Shown: one piece after another, positions 52,584-64,000 of the stretch
Position numbering within the stretch: position 1 is the stretch's first letter
How the letters are laid out: each line of letters starts with the position of its first letter
NCBI RefSeq assembly: GCF_000202635.1
Contig: NC_015125.1
Location: 1,550,001 to 1,614,000, forward strand
DNA length: 64,000 bases
Direction of reading: 5' to 3'
Source: Microbacterium testaceum StLB037
Lineage (GTDB): Bacteria > Actinomycetota > Actinomycetes > Actinomycetales > Microbacteriaceae
The notes under the pieces: model-generated
Databases searched by the model: none
What the model was told of the DNA's origin: nothing
The model's input: the letters and a program-made list of their open reading frames with translations, nothing else
Program-made: the position numbers and the translations under genes

Positions 52584-53032
52584 GGACGCTCCCTTGACGG
52601 CGGGTATGGCTTACCCATGCTAGCCCCCGGCCGGGGATGACCCCGGTCCACGACTGAGCGCACCACGAGGTCATCGAATCTCTCTTAACTCAATAGGGAT
52701 CTTTCATCTTGTTAACAGCTGTGGAGAGTGTGGATAACTTCGCGGATCGCTGTTAACAGAAGGGAACGACAGGACTGTCACTTGTGGACGGGCTGCGGAG
52801 AGCTTGCGCAGTTAACACGGCGAGGAGGGAAGTCGATCCGATCGCCGTCCACAAGTTAAGGCGCGTCGTGCACAGTTCATCCGCAGAGATTCGGAGTTAT
52901 CCACAGGTTTTCCACACTGTGTAGAACCCGCTGAAACATCCCTCTGGTGCGGGTGAAGCGGAGCTCTGACCGCCGAAAAGACGAAGGACCCGACCGCGGA
53001 TGCGGACGGGCCCTGGGCCGGGAGAGAGGCGC
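52584..53032. other. oriC: replication origin oriC (dnaA-dnaN intergenic region)
   Basis: The 449-base gap contains two perfect DnaA boxes TTATCCACA (52729-52737 minus; 52897-52905 plus), two CCGTCCACA (52783-52791 minus; 52845-52853 plus), and two weaker ones, CTCTCCACA (52720-52728 minus) and TTTTCCACA (52908-52916 plus). The three pairs are mirror images about 52818. GTTAAC occurs at 52711, 52752 and 52811. The stretch 52681-52717 is unusually AT-rich for this genome and may be the unwinding element. Position between dnaN and dnaA is that of oriC in many actinobacteria. Confidence 0.88.
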
Positions 53033-56678: not shown

Positions 56679-57182
56679 ATGACGACGTCCGAGCAGATCT
56701 CGACCGACCAGAACGCCGCCACCGAAGAGCAGCTCGAGCAGGAGGGCGACATCGCCGCCGACTTCCTCGAGGGGCTGCTGGACATCGCCGACATCGACGG
56801 TGACCTCGCCCTGGATGTCCGCGCGGGTCGCGCCTACGTGTCGGTGGAAGCGGAGGACGCGAGCGCACTGTCGGCGCTGTCGCACTCGGACACGGTCCAG
56901 GCGCTCCAGGAGCTCACGCGGCTGGCCGTGCAGAACGCGACCGGTCGTTTCTCCCGATTGATCCTCGACGTGGGCGGTTCGCGCGACGCGCGTCAGCGTC
57001 AGCTCGAGAACCTGGTCGACCGTGCGATCGAGCGCCTCGACGAGGGTGCATCGCAGGCGTCTCTGCCCGCGATGTCGAGCTACGAGCGCAAGCTTGTGCA
57101 CGACATCGCCGCGGAGCGCGGTTGCGTGTCCGAGTCGTTCGGTGAGGGCGCGGATCGCCACACCGTCCTGCGACGCAGCTGA
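56679..57182 (+). CDS. jag: Jag/KhpB-type RNA-binding protein (R3H domain)
   Basis: The 167-residue protein has an acidic N-terminus, a KH-like domain (DFLEGLLDIADIDGDLALDVRAGRAYVSVEAEDAS) and a C-terminal R3H domain (LPAMSSYERKLVHDIAAERGCVSESFGEGADRHTVLRR). It binds RNA and in Gram-positives influences division and wall genes. It follows yidC by 16 bases, the conserved order. Confidence 0.94.
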   Translation: MTTSEQISTDQNAATEEQLEQEGDIAADFLEGLLDIADIDGDLALDVRAGRAYVSVEAEDASALSALSHSDTVQALQELTRLAVQNATGRFSRLILDVGGSRDARQRQLENLVDRAIERLDEGASQASLPAMSSYERKLVHDIAAERGCVSESFGEGADRHTVLRRS

Positions 57183-57191
57183 GGACGTCGG

Positions 57192-57821
57192 ATGCCGATG
57201 GAGCTGGAGCCGGAGCCGGATGTCGCCGCCGAGATCTTCGGCGATCGTCTGGATCTCGCTCGGCGCTTCACACAGGCGCTGGCAGACCACGGTGAGGAGC
57301 GTGGGCTGATCGGCCCACTCGAGGTACCGCGTCTGTGGACGCGGCACATCCTCAACAGTGCCGTTGCCGCCCCCCTGTTCGAGGGGCAGGCGGCGGACAT
57401 CGGTTCAGGTGCCGGACTCCCCGGTATCGTCCTTGCGATCGCGCGGCCGGATGTGCAGTGGACTCTCATCGAGCCCATGGAGCGTCGAACGGTCTGGCTC
57501 ACGGAGCAGGCGGAGAGCCTCGGCCTCACGAATGTGACGGTCGCGCGGATGCGCGGTGAGGAGTGGACCGGCGGACGTTCCTTCGATGTCGTCACCGCTC
57601 GCGCCGTCAGTGCTCTGCGCACCCTGTTGCCTTCGACCGCACCGCTCGTGCGCCCGGGAGGCAGGCTCGTTCTCCTCAAGGGAGCGAACGTCGCGGCAGA
57701 GATCGACGCCGCGGCGAAGCAGGTGCGTCGCTTCGGATTGACGGACGTTCGTGTAGAGGTCGTCGGCGAGCGGCAGTTGGACGAACCGACGCGCGTGTTC
57801 GTGGCGACCGTTTCGCGCTGA
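57192..57821 (+). CDS. rsmG: 16S rRNA (guanine-N7) methyltransferase
   Basis: The 209-residue enzyme has the SAM-binding motif ADIGSGAGLPGIVLAIARPD, the family N-terminal RLDLARRFTQALADHGEERGLIGPLEVPRLWTRHILNS, and DVVTARAVSALRTLLP. It methylates G527 of 16S rRNA; loss gives low-level streptomycin resistance. It lies nine bases after jag. Normally parA follows closely; here 5.5 kb intervene. Confidence 0.97.
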   Translation: MPMELEPEPDVAAEIFGDRLDLARRFTQALADHGEERGLIGPLEVPRLWTRHILNSAVAAPLFEGQAADIGSGAGLPGIVLAIARPDVQWTLIEPMERRTVWLTEQAESLGLTNVTVARMRGEEWTGGRSFDVVTARAVSALRTLLPSTAPLVRPGGRLVLLKGANVAAEIDAAAKQVRRFGLTDVRVEVVGERQLDEPTRVFVATVSR

Positions 57822-58239
57822 CCGCGCGTCGCGTCGTCCGTCTTAGAAGACACTGCCCCTCATCGATGACGGGCCACGTGGGCCGTCGGGCGTCACGCGT
57901 CGTTGCCGGTGCGGAGACCTCGCCTGCCCAGTCCGCGCCGCGAGGGATGCGCGTCGACGGGGTGGCGGGCGTCAGGCCGGAAGCTGGGGTGGCGACAGCC
58001 CGTCAGCGACGGACCTCACGGGAGGGTGTGTCCCTGCGTGCCGTGTGGATGTGAGTGTCCGCTCCCGTGATGTGATCCCAGCTCGGGAAGATCGCATCGA
58101 TCCGACGGCTTGGGTCCGTTCGTTGCGAACTCCGACGGAGGGCGAGAGGAGTCAGATCGCCCTCGCTGTGGCAGGGCCAGGATTCGGGGCAGTGCGAGTC
58201 GCGGGCCTTTACTTAACTGGTTGTAAAATGAAGTCCTTA

Positions 58240-58261
58240 TCGGCATCCGCGCGTTGATGCC
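58240..58261 (+). other. small hairpin CGGCATC-loop-GATGCCG
   Basis: A seven-base stem with an eight-base loop follows an AT-rich stretch (TTAACTGGTTGTAAAATG). It is about 420 bases after rsmG and could end readthrough; no other role is evident. Confidence 0.35.
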
Positions 58262-58479
58262 GAGTGTGGGAACGGCTCTGTCGGCGTTCTGAATGCGCGA
58301 GCATCTTCCTGCCGTGGAACGCTGGCGTCGCCCCGGGCGTAGCGGACCGCGAGGTCATCGTCGTCGAGGAGATTGACCTGATGGACGACGAGGGCGGTGC
58401 GGATGTGGGGGGTGCCGTGCGCACGGGTCGACGTGGGACACCATCGCAGGCTTTTCGAAGACGAGCCGGGAGGGCCGGC

Positions 58480-58493
58480 GTTTCACGTGAAAC
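58480..58493. other. parS: parS site 1 (perfect)
   Basis: GTTTCACGTGAAAC, the ParB-binding palindrome. The preceding CCGGC is shared with parS site 5. Confidence 0.92.
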
Positions 58494-59426
58494 GAGCTGC
58501 CAGGCGGACGTGGCGTGACGTGCGGTTGGGAGGTCTCCTCGGCCGCCGCTCGAGCTGGCCTTCGGGGTGCTCGGGTGCCCCCGTGGCTTGGCACGTTGCA
58601 GCAGGCGGCGTATTGCTGATCCTTCATTTCAGGTCGGACGATGATGCGGCGCCGAGATGAACTTCGGGTGCGTGAGCCTGCGAAAGGCCGGTGGTGTGCA
58701 CGTGTCGCGGAATGGCTGCGGTGACGTCGGCGAGTCTCGGCGCCCTCGGTGACGACGTCCGTCCGCCGGAGTCGGGCCTTTGTCGGAGCTGGCTCGGTGG
58801 GTGCGGAGCGTCAGGGGTGGTTGGGTGCTCTCGAGGGGGGTATCCGCCGCCATGACGGAATGGGCTGGGTGAGGCGCGTCCAAAGGGGGTACTCGCTCAG
58901 CTCGTTGCGCGGGCATCCGGGCGAGCGAGAACTGCAATGCTGTCCGAGTGCGATTCTTCACGTGAGCGGACCCTCCGCGCGGCGGCGAGGATCGACGCCT
59001 CGATCCGAAGGCCGTGAGCGTGAGACCTATTCGGGATGTGTGTCGGACGCTGGTGTCTGACAGGTGATTCGTGCGGACTTCGTCGCGACGCTCAGATGGC
59101 GGAGCTCAACCAAGTTCCGGTGAGGGCTCCCCAGCGGACGGGATCATACGATCCGCTGTGGTCGGGTACATCGCCCGCGCTCCTGTTGACGGTGTTCCCG
59201 ACGTCGTGAGGCGGCTTGAGGAGACGTCGCTGTTCCACTGTGAGCAGCGCTATCTCGTGTCACTGCTGCTTCGCCGCGGAGGCTGGCCGGCTTCGAACCA
59301 ACACTCCCCCGCCTGGTTCCACAGCTCATAGGATGCGGATGATGCAGGTGTTGGTGAACGTCTTCGTCCGCTGCGGGAGGGCGTCCCCGGGGCTTGGCGG
59401 TGGATTGCGTGTCGTGATCATTCGGA

Positions 59427-59440
59427 GTTTCACGTGAAAC
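59427..59440. other. parS: parS site 2 (perfect)
   Basis: GTTTCACGTGAAAC flanked by A on both sides. Confidence 0.92.
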
Positions 59441-60535
59441 ATCCCTCGTGTGATGCAAATGGTTCGCATGTTGAGTCGGGCGCTCGGGCGGCTCGAGTGA
59501 GTGACCACGCCCCGATTGCAGGTTCTGGCACGACCTCACGGCGTGGACCTCGCGTGCAGTTCCGGCGCTGCCGTCGTTCTGTACCTGATTCCGATCTCGC
59601 CTGGCGCCACTTGCTGAACCTGACCTGGGCTTAGGCGAGCGCACGCGGGTGCCTCACAGCGCGGTGGTATACCGAGATGGGTTTCCGACGAGCGGAGCGT
59701 CGGATCCGTCGGACCGCCGAAGGACGTTGCCGCGCCGAGGTGCCAACCCCCGGCGAGTTGTGGCACTAGTTTCACGCGGTGTGGTGTGTTTCGTGGCAGC
59801 CGTCCGGTGTGAGCGATCACTGTGGAGCCACGAGCGAGCGCCATGTACGCCGAGATTCTTCTTCGAGGCGGTGTGGTTCGCGCCTGTTGTCGTGCGGGTC
59901 CGGCGGCATCGCCATAGGTGGCATCGCAGCGGTCTCTGCCGTCTCGAGTGCCGCAGTGACCGGAGCACATTCGCGTCGGTGTGCGCGACTCCGAGCCTGG
60001 AGCTGGCTGCGGGCCAATTCTCGCTCACTCGGAATGCACACGGTCGTGCTGATATCCGTGTGTGCTCCCGATCCACCCAAGACGGAGACGTTCGTAGATG
60101 GGGTGTGACAGGCGGGTCTCCCGGCTAGGAACTCACCAGGGCGCTGGACGCAGCTGGCGGTTGCGGATCGAGGGTGTCGGGGCCGCGTTGCCTCGGCGTC
60201 AGTCCAGCTGGGCCGCGGATTGGACGGAACTACACCGTGGGGTTGCGTGAGCCGAGGAACCTGTCCGCAGGCACCGCGTACGTCACGCCGACGCCATGGG
60301 GAAGCACAAAGTCGGGCATCCTGCGTCCCCGCACACACCCCTTACGGGGACACGGGAGCCGCGCGAGGTCTGCGGCAAAGTGTCAAATGTGCCTACAGGC
60401 ACCGATCACGCGGTCAGATGCCGGCGGCGGCGGGTGCGCCGCGGCCACGATGGTGAGCTGTCGATCTGCCCTGCCCCTCCCCCGCTGCCATGTTGCCGCG
60501 TGCAAGACGGAGGGAGGGTGTTGCGCTGGCCAAGT

Positions 60536-60549
60536 GTTTGACGTGAAAC
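60536..60549. other. parS: parS-like site 3 (one mismatch)
   Basis: GTTTGACGTGAAAC differs from parS only at the fifth base. It is flanked by T and A as in the 16-base consensus. Confidence 0.6.
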
Positions 60550-60814
60550 ATGCCGAGTGTCCGGGTGTCGGAAGAAGCCGCGGGCTGAACATCGCAGCCG
60601 CCTACATCCCTGAGCCGATCCGCGGGCGGTCATGAGAGTCGGCACTGTTGCAGCTTCGCCGCGTGGCCCGGGGAGTGCTCTCCGCGTGTACGGAGCGTCA
60701 CCGCAGCCATCGATTGGGAGGTGGTCTGGGCCGCCTCGCGCGCTCTCCGGAGTGTGGTGGTGGTGGTCGGGCCCACAATTCTGCCAGCGCCCAACTCCCC
60801 CCGCGTCTTCCGCG

Positions 60815-61190
60815 CTGGCCCGCTACGGCGACAACGGCCGCTCGCGCCACGCTCCGCTGTGAGGGTCTACCGTGACAGCTATCGCTCGCGTCGCGCTCCG
60901 CTGTGGGGCGCTGTTGTGACAGTGGCGGCTCGCGTCGCGCCCTGCTGTGAGGGTCTATCGTGACAGCTGTCGCTCTCGCGGCGCTCCGCTGTGGGGCGCT
61001 GTTGTGACAGGGGCGGCTCGCGTCGCGCCCTGCTGTGAGGGTCTATCGTGACAGCTGTCGCTCTCGCGGCGCTCCGCTGTGGGGCGCTGTTGTGACAGGG
61101 GCGGCTCGCGTCGCGCCCTGCTGTGAGGGTCTATCGTGACAGCTGTCGCTCTCGCGGCGCTCCGCTGTGGGGCGCTGTCGTGACAGCGGC
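60815..61190. repeat. tandem array: 88-bp unit made of two 44-bp half-units
   Basis: An 88-bp unit repeats with exact phase at 60859, 60947, 61035 and 61123, the last copy breaking down near 61190. Each unit consists of two related 44-bp halves (A starting GTGAGGGTCTATCGTGACAG, B starting GTGGGGCGCTGTTGTGACAG), so the array reads A-B-A-B. The later copies are almost identical. A diverged B-like half lies at 60815-60858. Each A half contains the palindrome GACAGCTGTC. No protein of known type is encoded. Confidence 0.93.
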
Positions 61191-61771
61191 CGCCCGCACC
61201 GAGTCCGGCCCTGGGCCTTCTGCGGCCGTGGCCGCGTCGACGGTGCGACGAACACCCGCGCCGCCGAGAGATGTGGGCCGGTATCGCAAGATGGGGCCGA
61301 CATAGCGAGGTGGACAGAGATGGCGGGCTCACGGGCCGACCTCCTCGGCTCGCGACGCCGCTACGACGCGTGTGAGGCGTGGAGATGAGTTCCGAAGACG
61401 CCCCCATTGGCGCGACTCCTTCGAGCTTTGTCTTGCTGGACCCGGTATTGGGCTCCCTTCCGCGTCTCAACGCGGGTGCGGCCTGCACGTGTGGCGTGTC
61501 GGCTGCTGTCTCGCGACATCACGTAGTGCAGGGGCTCCTGAGCGAAACCGCTTCTCGACGTGACGCGCGGAATCCGGTCAGCATCCCCGCGATGCCGTGA
61601 ATCTGGCACCGACGCTCGACGGTTCTTGCGATGAGGTTGCGGCAAGGCGGTGGGGCACCTTGCACAGGCCCGCCCCAACTCGGACCGGGTCACCGCGGTC
61701 CAGAAGGAGGCTCCCGGGGTGCTGTCAGGACCAGATGCAGTGATCAGGTTGTGAATGGGCAGGGCGCCCGT

Positions 61772-61785
61772 GTTTCACGTGAAAC
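61772..61785. other. parS: parS site 4 (perfect)
   Basis: GTTTCACGTGAAAC, flanked by T and C. Confidence 0.92.
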
Positions 61786-61860
61786 CCCACGGGTGCGGCT
61801 TCTTCAGGACGCAGGGTCCGCGTGGCTGTGTGCCCTGGACGCGGCACGTGCCCTGTCGCG

Positions 61861-61874
61861 ACGCCACGTGGCGT
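61861..61874. other. 14-bp palindrome ACGCCACGTGGCGT
   Basis: A perfect palindrome with the parS core CACGTG but different arms, 76 bases after parS site 4; GGCACGTGCC lies just before it at 61843-61852. Confidence 0.5.
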
Positions 61875-62195
61875 GGAGGAGAAACACCCCGCTTCGCACG
61901 GGAGCCGAGCACCGCCCCACGGCGGACGGGACAGCAACGTTTGTGTGAATGCCGGACGCCGGAACTGGCTCGGTGAATAGACGACACATTCTGCACCCGA
62001 GGCTTGGGGCGCGCGAGGCCAGTGCGCCGATCGCACTTCGCTGAGATCACGCCTGCGATGGCACATTGGATATTGACCCAATTGATGATGATCACGCCGC
62101 GGTGAGCCTTTCGCTCGGTTGCCCTACAGTGCAGAACGTCGCTGGCCGCCTCAATCGACAGGGATGGCTTGGCCGTGCACGGAACGGACTCCGGC

Positions 62196-62209
62196 GTTTC
62201 ACGTGAAAC
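62196..62209. other. parS: parS site 5 (perfect)
   Basis: GTTTCACGTGAAAC in the context CCGGC-parS-A. Confidence 0.92.
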
Positions 62210-62638
62210 ATCGGGGTGTGAGCCTGGCTCATCCGAGTGCCGAAACCGTGGCTCCATGCGATCCGCTGCACACTCCCACGTTTGGAATGCGCACCCGCCC
62301 GCCAGGCGCTCTCTCGTCGCGAGTTAGCCGTCGCGGTCTCCGTGCAATGGTCTGGCGTTGACCCGCGGCGCCTCACCCGAGCGCGAGGTGGGGTGACACG
62401 GTGCGCTCGGCGTCGTCGAGTCCACTAGTCGTGGTGTGGACTGAGGGGAGTGTCCGCGGGGGTCTCAAGAGATCCTCGACGCACCGGCCTACTCGGACAC
62501 GGGTGTCGCTTGGGGTAGTGCCGGCTTTGGACCAAGCGTGGGTGCCCCGCCCCAAATGGTCGCATCTAGCTCTACGGCGCTCTGGGCCCAAGGAACACCG
62601 TCTGGTGACGGAAAGCGGAGGGTGAGCGAGCAGGACAT

Positions 62639-62652
62639 GTTTCACGTGAAAC
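62639..62652. other. parS: parS site 6 (perfect)
   Basis: GTTTCACGTGAAAC, flanked by T and G. Confidence 0.92.
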
Positions 62653-62982
62653 GGAAGAGAGATGTGCCGAGCGCGGGGCAGGTAGGAACGACTGTGGGCG
62701 GCCCTGGTGGTGTTCTGATCGGGAGCGGGCACGTCACGGCATCGCGCGACCGACCGCTCGTTCGCTGACATGCAGGGGCCGAAGGTGGACCGGATCAGGA
62801 GCGTCGAAGAGGCGCAACGAGATGGCGCGATGATGATCCGGACGCGAGCCAGAACGCATCGACACATCCACACGACGGGAATGGCTCCGCGGAGGGTGGG
62901 TCAGCGTGTCCCGATCGCCGCCATCCAGTACGTCGTTCCCATCAATGGAGCCGGAGCAGCACCACGGTAGACCGCTGCCGCG

Positions 62983-63062
62983 GCGGTGCGGCGGTGCGGC
63001 GGTGCGGCGGTGCGGCGGTGCGGCGGTGCGGCGGTGCGGGGATGCGGGGATGCGGGGATGCC
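62983..63062. repeat. 8-bp tandem repeat, ten units
   Basis: Seven exact copies of GCGGTGCG (62983-63038) are followed by three variant units of GGGATGCG type (63039-63062, the last ending CC). An eight-base unit shifts all frames when copy number changes, consistent with non-coding sequence. Confidence 0.92.
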
Positions 63063-63262
63063 CGGCTGCGGCCAACCCCCCTCAGGTTCAGATCGACGAA
63101 GGAGCGTTCCGAGTTGCATTCCTCCAATGAGTTCAGAATCGATCCCACGGCTCGCCCCGGCCGTCGAACGAGACAGGCTCGCGCTCCTGCGGCGCGACGT
63201 CAACGAGCGAGGCGTCACGGGCTCGGCGATGGTGAAGCACGCAATCGGGTAGCGCATTCTCA

Positions 63263-63292
63263 CCTCACCTACCCTCCCCTCACCTACCCTCC
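63263..63292. repeat. 15-bp direct repeat, two copies
   Basis: CCTCACCTACCCTCC occurs twice in tandem about 85 bases before parA, in a pyrimidine-rich stretch. Confidence 0.8.
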
Positions 63293-63368
63293 CCACAGGG
63301 CATACGCGTCGGACGTCCGCGCCACCTCGCGGGTAGACTGGGCGAGTTCGGCGACGGCAAGGGAGAAC

Positions 63369-63382
63369 GTTTCACGTGAAAC
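63369..63382. other. parS: parS site 7 (perfect), spanning the parA start codon
   Basis: GTTTCACGTGAAAC; its central GTG (63376-63378) is the probable start codon of parA. ParB bound here would cover the translation start and could repress the operon. Confidence 0.92.
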
Positions 63383-64000
63383 AGTCCGACGAGACGCCAT
63401 CGTCATCCTCGTTCTTCGACTCCCCTATCGCGCGCGAGATCGCTGACCTCTCCGCGCGACGCCGTGCGCTTGAAGCCGTGAAGGTCGAACTATCTGGGCG
63501 AACGCGGGTCTTCACCGTTTCGAATCAGAAGGGCGGCGTTGGTAAGACCACGACGGCCGTGAACATCGCCGCCGCGCTGGCCTCTGTCGGCGCGCGCGTT
63601 CTGGTGATCGATCTCGACCCGCAGGGCAATGCATCCACCGCTCTCGGTGTCGCGCACAACGCGGAAACGGCGAGCATCTACGACGTCCTGATCAACGAAG
63701 TGCCCCTCGCGGACATCGTGCAGACGAGCCCGGAATCCTCCGACCTCCTCTGCGCGCCGAGCACGATCCACCTCGCGGGAGCTGAGATCGAACTCGTGTC
63801 GCAAGTCGCCCGTGAGCACCGGCTTCGCGGTGCACTACGCGACTACCTCGCCATCGAGGGTAACCATCTCGACTTCGTCATCATCGACTGTCCCCCGTCG
63901 CTGGGCCTCCTCACGATCAACGCCTTCACCGCAGCCGACGAGGTTCTCATTCCCATCCAGTGCGAGTACTACGCGCTGGAGGGTCTGAGTCAGCTCCTGG
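63376..64000 (+). CDS. parA: chromosome-partitioning ATPase ParA (truncated by window end)
   Basis: The first 208 residues are present. After a 42-residue leader come the deviant Walker A VSNQKGGVGKTTTAVNIAAALA, LVIDLDPQGNASTALG, and FVIIDCPPSLGLLTINAF, diagnostic of Soj/ParA. ParA binds DNA non-specifically with ATP and moves ParB-parS complexes. GTG 63376 lies inside parS site 7, with AAGGGAG about ten bases upstream. Alternative starts are the GTG at codon 35 (VKVELSGRTR) close to the Walker A. parB is expected beyond the window. ParA proteins usually begin closer to rsmG. Confidence 0.95.
   Translation, partial: MKQSDETPSSSSFFDSPIAREIADLSARRRALEAVKVELSGRTRVFTVSNQKGGVGKTTTAVNIAAALASVGARVLVIDLDPQGNASTALGVAHNAETASIYDVLINEVPLADIVQTSPESSDLLCAPSTIHLAGAEIELVSQVAREHRLRGALRDYLAIEGNHLDFVIIDCPPSLGLLTINAFTAADEVLIPIQCEYYALEGLSQLL

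Follow-up and report, generated by a model that had tools for sequence, protein, structure and literature searches.

A gene-free, parS-bearing block between rsmG and parA of Microbacterium testaceum StLB037 as a candidate chromosomal centromere

Introduction

Kilobase-scale clusters of parS sites are already known. In Myxococcus xanthus, 22 parS are packed into 3 kb at a distance of about 4 kb upstream of parA, with parAB lying about 35 kb from oriC and one additional parS elsewhere in the genome (PMC3899335). Caulobacter crescentus carries at least five clustered parS about 8 kb from ori and shows ParB over about 10 kb; the expansion of such centromere-like regions was posed as an open question (PMC5815017). 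Corynebacterium glutamicum, belonging to the same phylum as Microbacterium, has ten parS in one cluster, where ParB spreads and SMC is enriched (PMC7083940).

Here, we analysed a 64,000-nt stretch (the window) of Microbacterium testaceum StLB037 (NC_015125.1); all coordinates are those of the window. Like the M. xanthus array, the block between its rsmG and parA genes is a dedicated kilobase-scale parS cluster near parAB, in which the sites are concentrated within a few kb, with none or nearly none elsewhere. The M. xanthus array is denser, with one parS per ~140 bp against ~800 bp, and has the consensus TGTTCCACGTGGAACG instead of GTTTCACGTGAAAC; neither a spacing of about 100-200 bp nor the GTTCCACGTGGAAC consensus of a Myxococcus-like array was found in the window, where neighbouring parS are 424-1236 bp apart. 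C. crescentus likewise has its parS clustered near ori, but in the account of PMC5815017 drawn on here the cluster is described without a gene-free block. C. glutamicum shares the single cluster, with nine of ten parS intergenic, whereas its sites extend over 35 kb at 73 kb from oriC and one is intragenic (PMC7083940). A first-pass annotation of the window had stated that parS are scattered in genes in most bacteria, which is too strong in view of the C. glutamicum sites and the 3-kb M. xanthus cluster (PMC3899335). What is new here is the gene-free, possibly repeatedly evolved form, and it bears on the question why parS cluster.

Results

The block (57822..63367) is bordered on the left by rsmG (gidB; 57192..57821, + strand; Pfam PF02527, NCBIfam TIGR00138) and on the right by parA (63376..64000, + strand; Pfam AAA_31), which is truncated by the window end. 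With rsmG ending at 57821 and parA starting with GTG at 63376, the gap measures 5.55 kb, in agreement with the ~5.5 kb given before. Upstream of rsmG lies jag (R3H domain; 56679..57182, + strand), whose Pfam R3H match was above and whose NCBIfam Jag_EloR match was below the cut-off. The presumed oriC is the dnaA-dnaN intergenic region (52584..53032) with DnaA-box-like sites at 52729, 52897 and 52908, dnaA and dnaN having been identified by reading their translations, without a family search. The block is located ~4.8 kb (about 5 kb) from this presumed oriC and directly before parA, a position near oriC and parAB as in a ParABS centromere; parB lies outside the window. That rsmG and parA are normally close in actinobacteria was borne out by a gap of <1 kb in 48/51 genomes from other families of the class, a hand-picked subset of the 140 found.

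Scanning of the window and the chromosome recovered the seven parS or parS-like sites annotated earlier. Six are exact copies of GTTTCACGTGAAAC (58480..58493, 59427..59440, 61772..61785, 62196..62209, 62639..62652 and 63369..63382), and the third site in order, GTTTGACGTGAAAC (60536..60549), has one mismatch, in a form outside the 15 commonest in relatives' blocks. Strictly, six sites lie within the gap, the last one overlapping the predicted parA start, where a parS is also present at the equivalent place in aligned relative pairs. Seven sites in the whole window stand against 0.04 expected from shuffles (<=3 mismatches to the 16-mer), far above chance as in a ParABS centromere, and the whole chromosome contains no further parS with <=1 mismatch; all seven lie within 4.9 kb. 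Their spacing, about one per ~800 bp, is more even than 98% of random placements; evenness above random was seen in all three groups examined, as a modest effect among related, non-independent genomes. Across 107 blocks, 595 exact parS were counted.

The earlier claim that the block holds no supportable gene withstood a codon-periodicity check. The block's period-3 power (median over 35 windows, 0.61) equalled that of shuffled sequence (0.63) and was tenfold lower than that of the rest of the window (6.1), while the longest open frame, 199 codons from stop to stop, was shorter than the random-model mean of 343. No Pfam match was found for six block ORFs, no NCBIfam match for seven and no homologous protein for two, and with these results a coding content of the block was rejected. 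A non-coding RNA was likewise rejected, the block stretch searched giving no Rfam match. As for insulating terminators downstream of rsmG, folding energies directly after the gene resembled those within the block, and between 57600 and 63600 only two terminator-like and zero sigma-70-like sites were predicted in this actinobacterial host, not exceeding shuffles. The lower apparent GC described before is real but slight (66.8% versus 69.1%). In relatives' blocks, a coding signal is mostly absent; local signals occur in some, covering 27% of the windows in L030 and 50% in L162, whose interval is short. By the definition proposed here for a gene-free centromere block (>=0.9 kb without coding signal and >=2 parS), the window contains one.

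The block also contains repeats and captured DNA. Of the two tandem arrays reported previously, both are present, and a third, short one was added: an array of period 88 (two 44-bp halves) with ~4 copies (60836..61201), an 8-bp array of GCGGCGGT with 9.5 copies (62980-63055) followed by a degenerate 16-bp repeat (together 62980..63071), and a 15-bp repeat with 2.4 copies (63259..63294). An 83-bp gene piece (58326..58408) is 92% identical to part of a chromosomal gene (C1:2367711-2367793), and stretches similar to it were found elsewhere in relatives' genomes. Searching the block against its own genome yielded this piece and a low-complexity match in the 8-bp array. In the sister species G288, 945 bp of the block recur with 99% identity at another site of its own genome, probably as an insertion sequence, and own-genome searches of the G037 and G358 blocks revealed no captured pieces. 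With such pieces in two of four genomes, the idea that the block arose mainly from captured DNA was dismissed.

In what we call the testaceum group (RsmG identity ~75% or more), the block is present in 34/34 measured genomes with 2.2-6.3 kb and 5-10 parS, length and parS number being only weakly related (rho 0.34, p 0.05); blocks of this kind are carried by StLB037 (L016) and by NBRC 12675 (L027). The longest other run of low period-3 signal in 33 loci of this group was 840 bp. Interval lengths within Microbacterium lie between 113 bp and 7.2 kb, and some more distant members show just 113-141 bp. An expanded interval with divergent sequence and retained parS, as anticipated for related strains, was in fact seen in relatives, and the outcomes named beforehand as speaking against it, conserved proteins in the block or a close relative without it, were looked for and not encountered, the latter among the 34 genomes of the group.

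At the same place, sequence similarity to the sister species is confined to ~50 bp before parA (63318..63367, + strand, from DNA comparison), presumably the parA promoter region. Against 20 close relatives, the block matched in the gene piece, the repeat arrays and this stretch, and nowhere else. Three pairs of relatives have blocks 81-91% identical and aligned end to end. In these, 14/18 parS (those of the first genome per pair, without the parA-start site) are letter-identical, where the 14-mers of these alignments would predict 4.2 (binomial p = 1.6e-6, pooled over three pairs of unequal background), and three of the four others face a near-match in the partner genome. The more distantly related pair L049/L069 (75%), a fourth one kept outside the binomial test, retains 3/3. 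The parS are under purifying selection, as in a ParABS centromere. Identity at fourfold sites was 0.91/0.90/0.86 as opposed to 0.91/0.85/0.81 in the block, which diverges equally or faster. An unusually fast turnover was superfluous as an explanation, close pairs aligning throughout and the unalignability of distant ones fitting saturation of neutral sites. The close pair L016/L092 differs by 35 indels in 5.1 kb; with so few indels, block length may persist over that time without selection.

Among 171 Microbacteriaceae, the shortest gap is 7 bp and the longest 7.2 kb, the number of parS inside runs from 0 to 15, and interval length correlates with parS inside (rho 0.87) and inversely with parS outside (-0.66). 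Gap lengths are overstated by up to ~135 bp, the interval end being the parA match. Ten loci were left out, L100 and, from the set of 80 loci, the open intervals L011, L026, L041, L051, L055, L067, L072, L077 and L079. Independent contrasts on a tree of 170 taxa, without the window, gave 0.61 inside and -0.32 outside. Upstream flanks of other genera extend over only ~250 bp, so the outside counts in the 171 genomes are minimum values and sequence of the jag-rsmG junction is mostly missing; exact-site counts in 80 whole genomes (19 Microbacterium, 61 of other genera) gave rho 0.82 inside and -0.64 outside. The parS density declines from 4.0 per kb at 600-1500 bp to 1.7 above 3 kb, so that in long blocks parS number does not keep pace with growth.

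Among 80 other-genus genomes, a parS-bearing stretch free of genes was located between rsmG and parA in 20, after parA in 13 and at both places in none, an exclusivity of just nominal significance (hypergeometric 0.016; Fisher p 0.03). One further genome has such a stretch with 17 parS between jag and rsmG. By the criterion applied, 47/80 are without a block, the jag-rsmG junction being outside the covered sequence in most.

Discussion

The analysis confirmed a gene-free parS block between rsmG and parA. All parS of the chromosome lie within it or at its edge, it is non-coding, and conservation extends to the parS but not to the spacer; genomes with a long interval have fewer parS elsewhere, and similar blocks occupy other junctions in other genera. 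As relatives keep both the absence of genes and the segregation signals despite a changed spacer, the block looks like a dedicated bacterial centromere, and the centromere-like reading of the first pass was supported, the roles it suggested in ParB spreading, SMC loading or origin anchoring being hypothetical. Probably, the block is the chromosome's centromere, a gene-free, sequence-tolerant ParB landing strip of ~5.5 kb carrying the parS set; we infer that it is coated with ParB, that SMC is loaded there and that selection keeps it free of genes. ParB-CTP clamps would load at every parS and slide onto the spacer, and with sites 0.4-1.2 kb apart the whole stretch would be coated with ParB, giving a single compact ParA cargo and one SMC loading zone beside oriC. 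A gene-free spacer would avoid RNA polymerase traffic as well as the silencing of useful genes; its sequence might drift freely, while only the parS, in their number and approximate spacing, and the lack of genes would be kept.

Eukaryotic regional centromeres are marked by gene-poor, fast-diverging DNA whose sequence itself is not conserved. The Microbacterium block would work like one without being a member of this class, its identity residing in a conserved 14-bp site and not in chromatin. It is quite possible, and tentatively proposed, that one family repeatedly evolved such regional centromeres, gene-free, usually one per chromosome, freely drifting, with evenly spaced parS and refoundable at other jag-rsmG-parA-parB junctions. 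Selection would then act on gene-freeness and spacing, not on spacer sequence, because ParB clamps and transcription would be mutually exclusive. In favour of a centromere, a parS can repress nearby genes in Pseudomonas aeruginosa (PMC5521831), and in an E. coli host Caulobacter ParB reaches no further than about 2 kb from a site (PMC5815017). Counting against it, Bacillus subtilis without its ParB homologue was reported to show no significant expression change (cited in PMC5521831), and C. glutamicum grows like the wild type with a single parS (PMC7083940), which leaves the need for a kilobase block less than obvious.

A possible, though rather doubtful, alternative is that only the parS are selected and the gap is a tolerant place gathering neutral insertions, fragments and repeats between undeletable sites as a functionless spacer, with point mutations creating new parS in the gap, where they do the least harm. 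The 83-bp fragment, the three tandem arrays and the 945-bp repeat of the sister species are of the kind expected, spacer divergence is neutral-like, gains and losses of parS resemble point changes, and parS density drops with length; a self-reinforcing expansion of centromeres has also been proposed (PMC7333895, PMC5815017). Such passive growth does not require, however, that parS outside be scarce when the interval is long, the sites are more evenly spaced than random, and captured pieces are absent from two of the four genomes searched against themselves. Non-coding DNA in bacteria usually decays, yet all 34 testaceum-group genomes retain 2.2-6.3 kb, while other low-period-3 runs (33 loci) do not exceed 840 bp.

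That the block is a long non-coding RNA or an extended parA regulatory leader is very unlikely. The conserved ~50 bp directly before parA and the enrichment of some G-run words in relatives' blocks would fit, but Rfam gave no match and nothing else is conserved at the same place in the sister species. The word ACTCCCCC occurs in 42/101 relatives' blocks versus 12 expected (second-order model), and on the + strand still about fourfold above expectation (40 versus 9, fourth-order model). G-run words are, however, similarly frequent per kb in the coding DNA on both sides (19 in 325 kb upstream and 39 in 396 kb downstream, compared with 40 in 305 kb of block) and are not counted as a centromere motif for this reason. 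Local period-3 signals in some relatives, often directly after rsmG, and ORFs of >400 codons in the L012, L020, L047 and L099 blocks might indicate fast-evolving or very small proteins, or a decayed genomic island. This is hardly credible for the window, whose block shows no period-3 signal anywhere, has ORFs below the chance mean and, for the ORFs tested, matched no protein family or homologue; as its DNA cannot be aligned with that of the sister species, no frames are shared with them. A strain-specific misassembly or foreign insertion would explain why no similarity at the same place extends beyond the last ~50 bp, but its probability is practically nil: the interval is expanded throughout the testaceum group and blocks of close pairs align end to end, so the relatives refute it.

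With its range of gap lengths, three alternative places for the block, and close pairs in which births and deaths of parS can be followed, the Microbacteriaceae form a natural series in which it can be tested whether ParB loading prefers gene-free DNA and how much spacer is required by a bacterial centromere. As to origin-related motifs, the DnaA boxes TTGTCCACA and TTGTGCACA were not enriched in 101 relatives' blocks. The DnaA-box word TTATCCACA was found 6-7 times in the same 101 blocks, with about 0-1 expected.

The gene-free block and its parS sites

The StLB037 chromosome is a single contig of 3.98 Mb, and the window corresponds to its bases 1550001-1614000. Within it, rsmG ends at 57821 and parA is read from 63376, leaving 5.55 kb between the two genes, of which 57822-63367 form the gene-free block. 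Six exact copies of parS, the 14-bp site of ParABS chromosome segregation, were located here, at 58480, 59427, 61772, 62196, 62639 and 63369, the last one overlapping the start of parA, together with one single-mismatch site, GTTTGACGTGAAAC, at 60536. No further parS with at most one mismatch was found when the whole chromosome was scanned.

The period-3 power of the block is that of shuffled DNA, while the remaining window is tenfold higher, and the ORFs of the block are shorter than the chance mean. Six of these ORFs gave no match in Pfam and seven none in NCBIfam, a homologue search with two of them found none, and Rfam revealed no match in the block. The next longest silent runs of the window, 720 and 660 bp, adjoin dnaA. 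In 33 loci of what we call the testaceum group (RsmG identity of about 75% or more), the longest silent run within the block had a median of 3180 bp and a minimum of 1440 bp, and the longest stretch without coding signal outside the block was 840 bp (median 780). Coding signal was mostly absent from the relatives' blocks and local in some, the highest share in the testaceum group being 27% of windows (locus L030); the short interval of L162, from another genus, showed it in 50% of windows. Among the 101 blocks that reach 900 bp, the + strand has more G than C in 90% and more T than A in 93%, which we read as a neutral leading-strand bias.

Distribution among relatives

Intervals between rsmG and parA were taken from 80 named loci and from 20 and 80 regions of further genomes, and 171 of them, the window included, could be measured. 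All 34 testaceum-group intervals are 2.2-6.3 kb long with 5-10 parS each, and none of these 34 fetched loci has a parS elsewhere. The RsmG encoded in the window shares 94% identity with that of M. testaceum NS283. Other Microbacterium ranged from 113 bp to 7.2 kb (57 intervals), and the largest blocks among them were those of Microbacterium sp. MAH-37 (6.1 kb, 14 exact parS) and Microbacterium sp. ASV49 (a 7.2-kb interval with 10 exact parS inside). Other genera of the Microbacteriaceae had a median of 123 bp, with 23 of 80 intervals exceeding 600 bp. Since the interval was below 1 kb in 48 of 51 genomes from other families of the class, hand-picked from 140 found so as to spread over families, a kilobase-sized gene-free gap at this place is, within our sample, essentially a trait of the Microbacteriaceae; of the three longer intervals, two carried coding signal and one (1.3 kb, four parS) did not.

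Requiring a stretch of 900 bp or more that lacks coding signal and contains two or more parS, we scanned the 80 other-genus loci and found a block between rsmG and parA in 20. In 13, one starts 1.6-3.5 kb past the point where the parA match begins, presumably downstream of parB. No locus had both, against 3.25 expected (hypergeometric 0.016; Fisher p 0.03), and 47 had a block at neither place. One of these 47, genome G454 (L244:7771-12589), carries its block between jag and rsmG. The gap there is 4.8 kb long, contains 17 parS (11 exact) and is for the most part free of coding signal. The count at jag-rsmG is a lower bound, as this junction was covered in a minority of other-genus loci; further blocks may exist there. 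At least two parS were present in 36 of the 44 long silent stretches of these 80 loci. On the tree, the four-state place required at least 30 changes, compared with 60 on average when the labels were shuffled; the position is therefore inherited, yet has frequently been gained, lost or moved.

Number and spacing of parS

Over the 171 genomes, interval length correlated with the number of parS inside the interval (rho 0.87), in the rest of the fetched locus (-0.66) and in total (0.70). Independent contrasts on a 170-taxon tree, on which the state "over 600 bp" changed at least 18 times, gave 0.61, -0.32 and 0.46, respectively. When exact sites were counted in 80 whole genomes, the interval gave 0.82 and the genome outside it -0.64; in 19 of the 80 every exact parS lay within the interval. 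The rule is not a tight one: the relation is weak in the testaceum group alone (rho 0.34, p 0.05), and density drops from 4.0 parS per kb in intervals of 600-1500 bp to 1.7 per kb above 3 kb.

With both end sites fixed, the coefficient of variation of the gaps was compared with random placement. Its mean z was -0.59 (34 blocks), -0.90 (48) and -0.65 (15 other-genus blocks), with standard errors of 0.12-0.19, and the array of the window surpasses 98% of random placements in evenness. Gaps more even than random are suggestive here, because related genomes are not independent.

Sequence evolution

Except for the DNA directly 5' of parA, the block could not be aligned at the same place with the nearest named sisters. 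Identity to these sisters is just 45-46% even at fourfold sites, and the lost alignment is thus the behaviour expected of neutral DNA. In closer pairs among the relatives, the blocks align over their full length, with identities of block and fourfold sites of 91% and 91% (L050/L108), 85% and 90% (L016/L092) and 81% and 86% (L033/L099). Leaving aside the site at the parA start, parS was letter-identical in 14 of 18 cases in these three pairs, against 4.2 expected, with 53-97% identity in the 30 bases preceding each site; a fourth, more distant pair kept three of three. Gains and losses of parS look like point changes in these alignments, as where one parS stands opposite a two-mismatch site in the paired genome.

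Possible function and origin of the block

Caulobacter ParB placed in an E. coli host is described as spreading at most about 2 kb per site (PMC5815017), so gaps of 0.4-1.2 kb between parS should allow ParB to fill the block. In P. aeruginosa, parS-bound ParB is described as repressing neighbouring promoters, and a B. subtilis transcriptome study is cited in the same article for no significant changes (PMC5521831). The absence of genes from the strip would keep ParB clear of transcription and genes clear of repression; SMC might be loaded at the block, and the cell might benefit from its being gene-free. The main rival to such a benefit is passive growth, in which parS alone is selected and the spacer around the needed sites accumulates neutrally. 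It is favoured by the other DNA that blocks tolerate, namely a gene piece, repeats and a 945-bp repeat. The first of these (58326-58408; L111:1501-1583) is a captured fragment of 83 bp. It matches, at 92% identity, a section of a chromosomal gene whose protein has a long RDGDRPFRRD repeat region, and similar stretches occur in relatives' genomes. The 945-bp stretch, in the block of a sister species (genome G288, L090:5210-6154), is 99% identical to a second and 74% identical to a third place in its own genome, and is probably an insertion sequence that landed there.

A search of open-licence full texts turned up no account of parS blocks free of genes in Microbacterium or the Microbacteriaceae. 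A 2007 survey of parS sites by Livny et al. is cited in this literature. We regard the block as a variant form of the chromosomal parS centromere. Clusters of parS near oriC were already known, and the 22 parS described within 3 kb in M. xanthus (PMC3899335) resemble the block in their kilobase-scale clustering. PMC4255298 names M. testaceum in its genome list and, where it turns to parS, treats the site in general terms.

Variant sites

The 107 blocks above 600 bp contain 595 exact parS; their commonest single-mismatch form is GTTTCACGTGGAAC, or its complement GTTCCACGTGAAAC (35 + 22). The site at 60536 differs from this dominant variant and may be decaying. Four other-genus loci with rsmG and parA present (L150, L170, L186 and L187) lack exact parS throughout the fetched locus, and whole-genome counts, which covered two of their genomes, G393 and G503, gave zero in both; a variant site may serve their ParB instead. 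The 6.8-kb interval of genome G430 (L142) holds 13 parS, 11 with a single mismatch and two exact, and its ParB has perhaps shifted in specificity. A DnaA-box-like word, TTATCCACA, occurs 6-7 times in 101 relatives' blocks of at least 900 bp, against about 0-1 expected, a count that is small and above the model.
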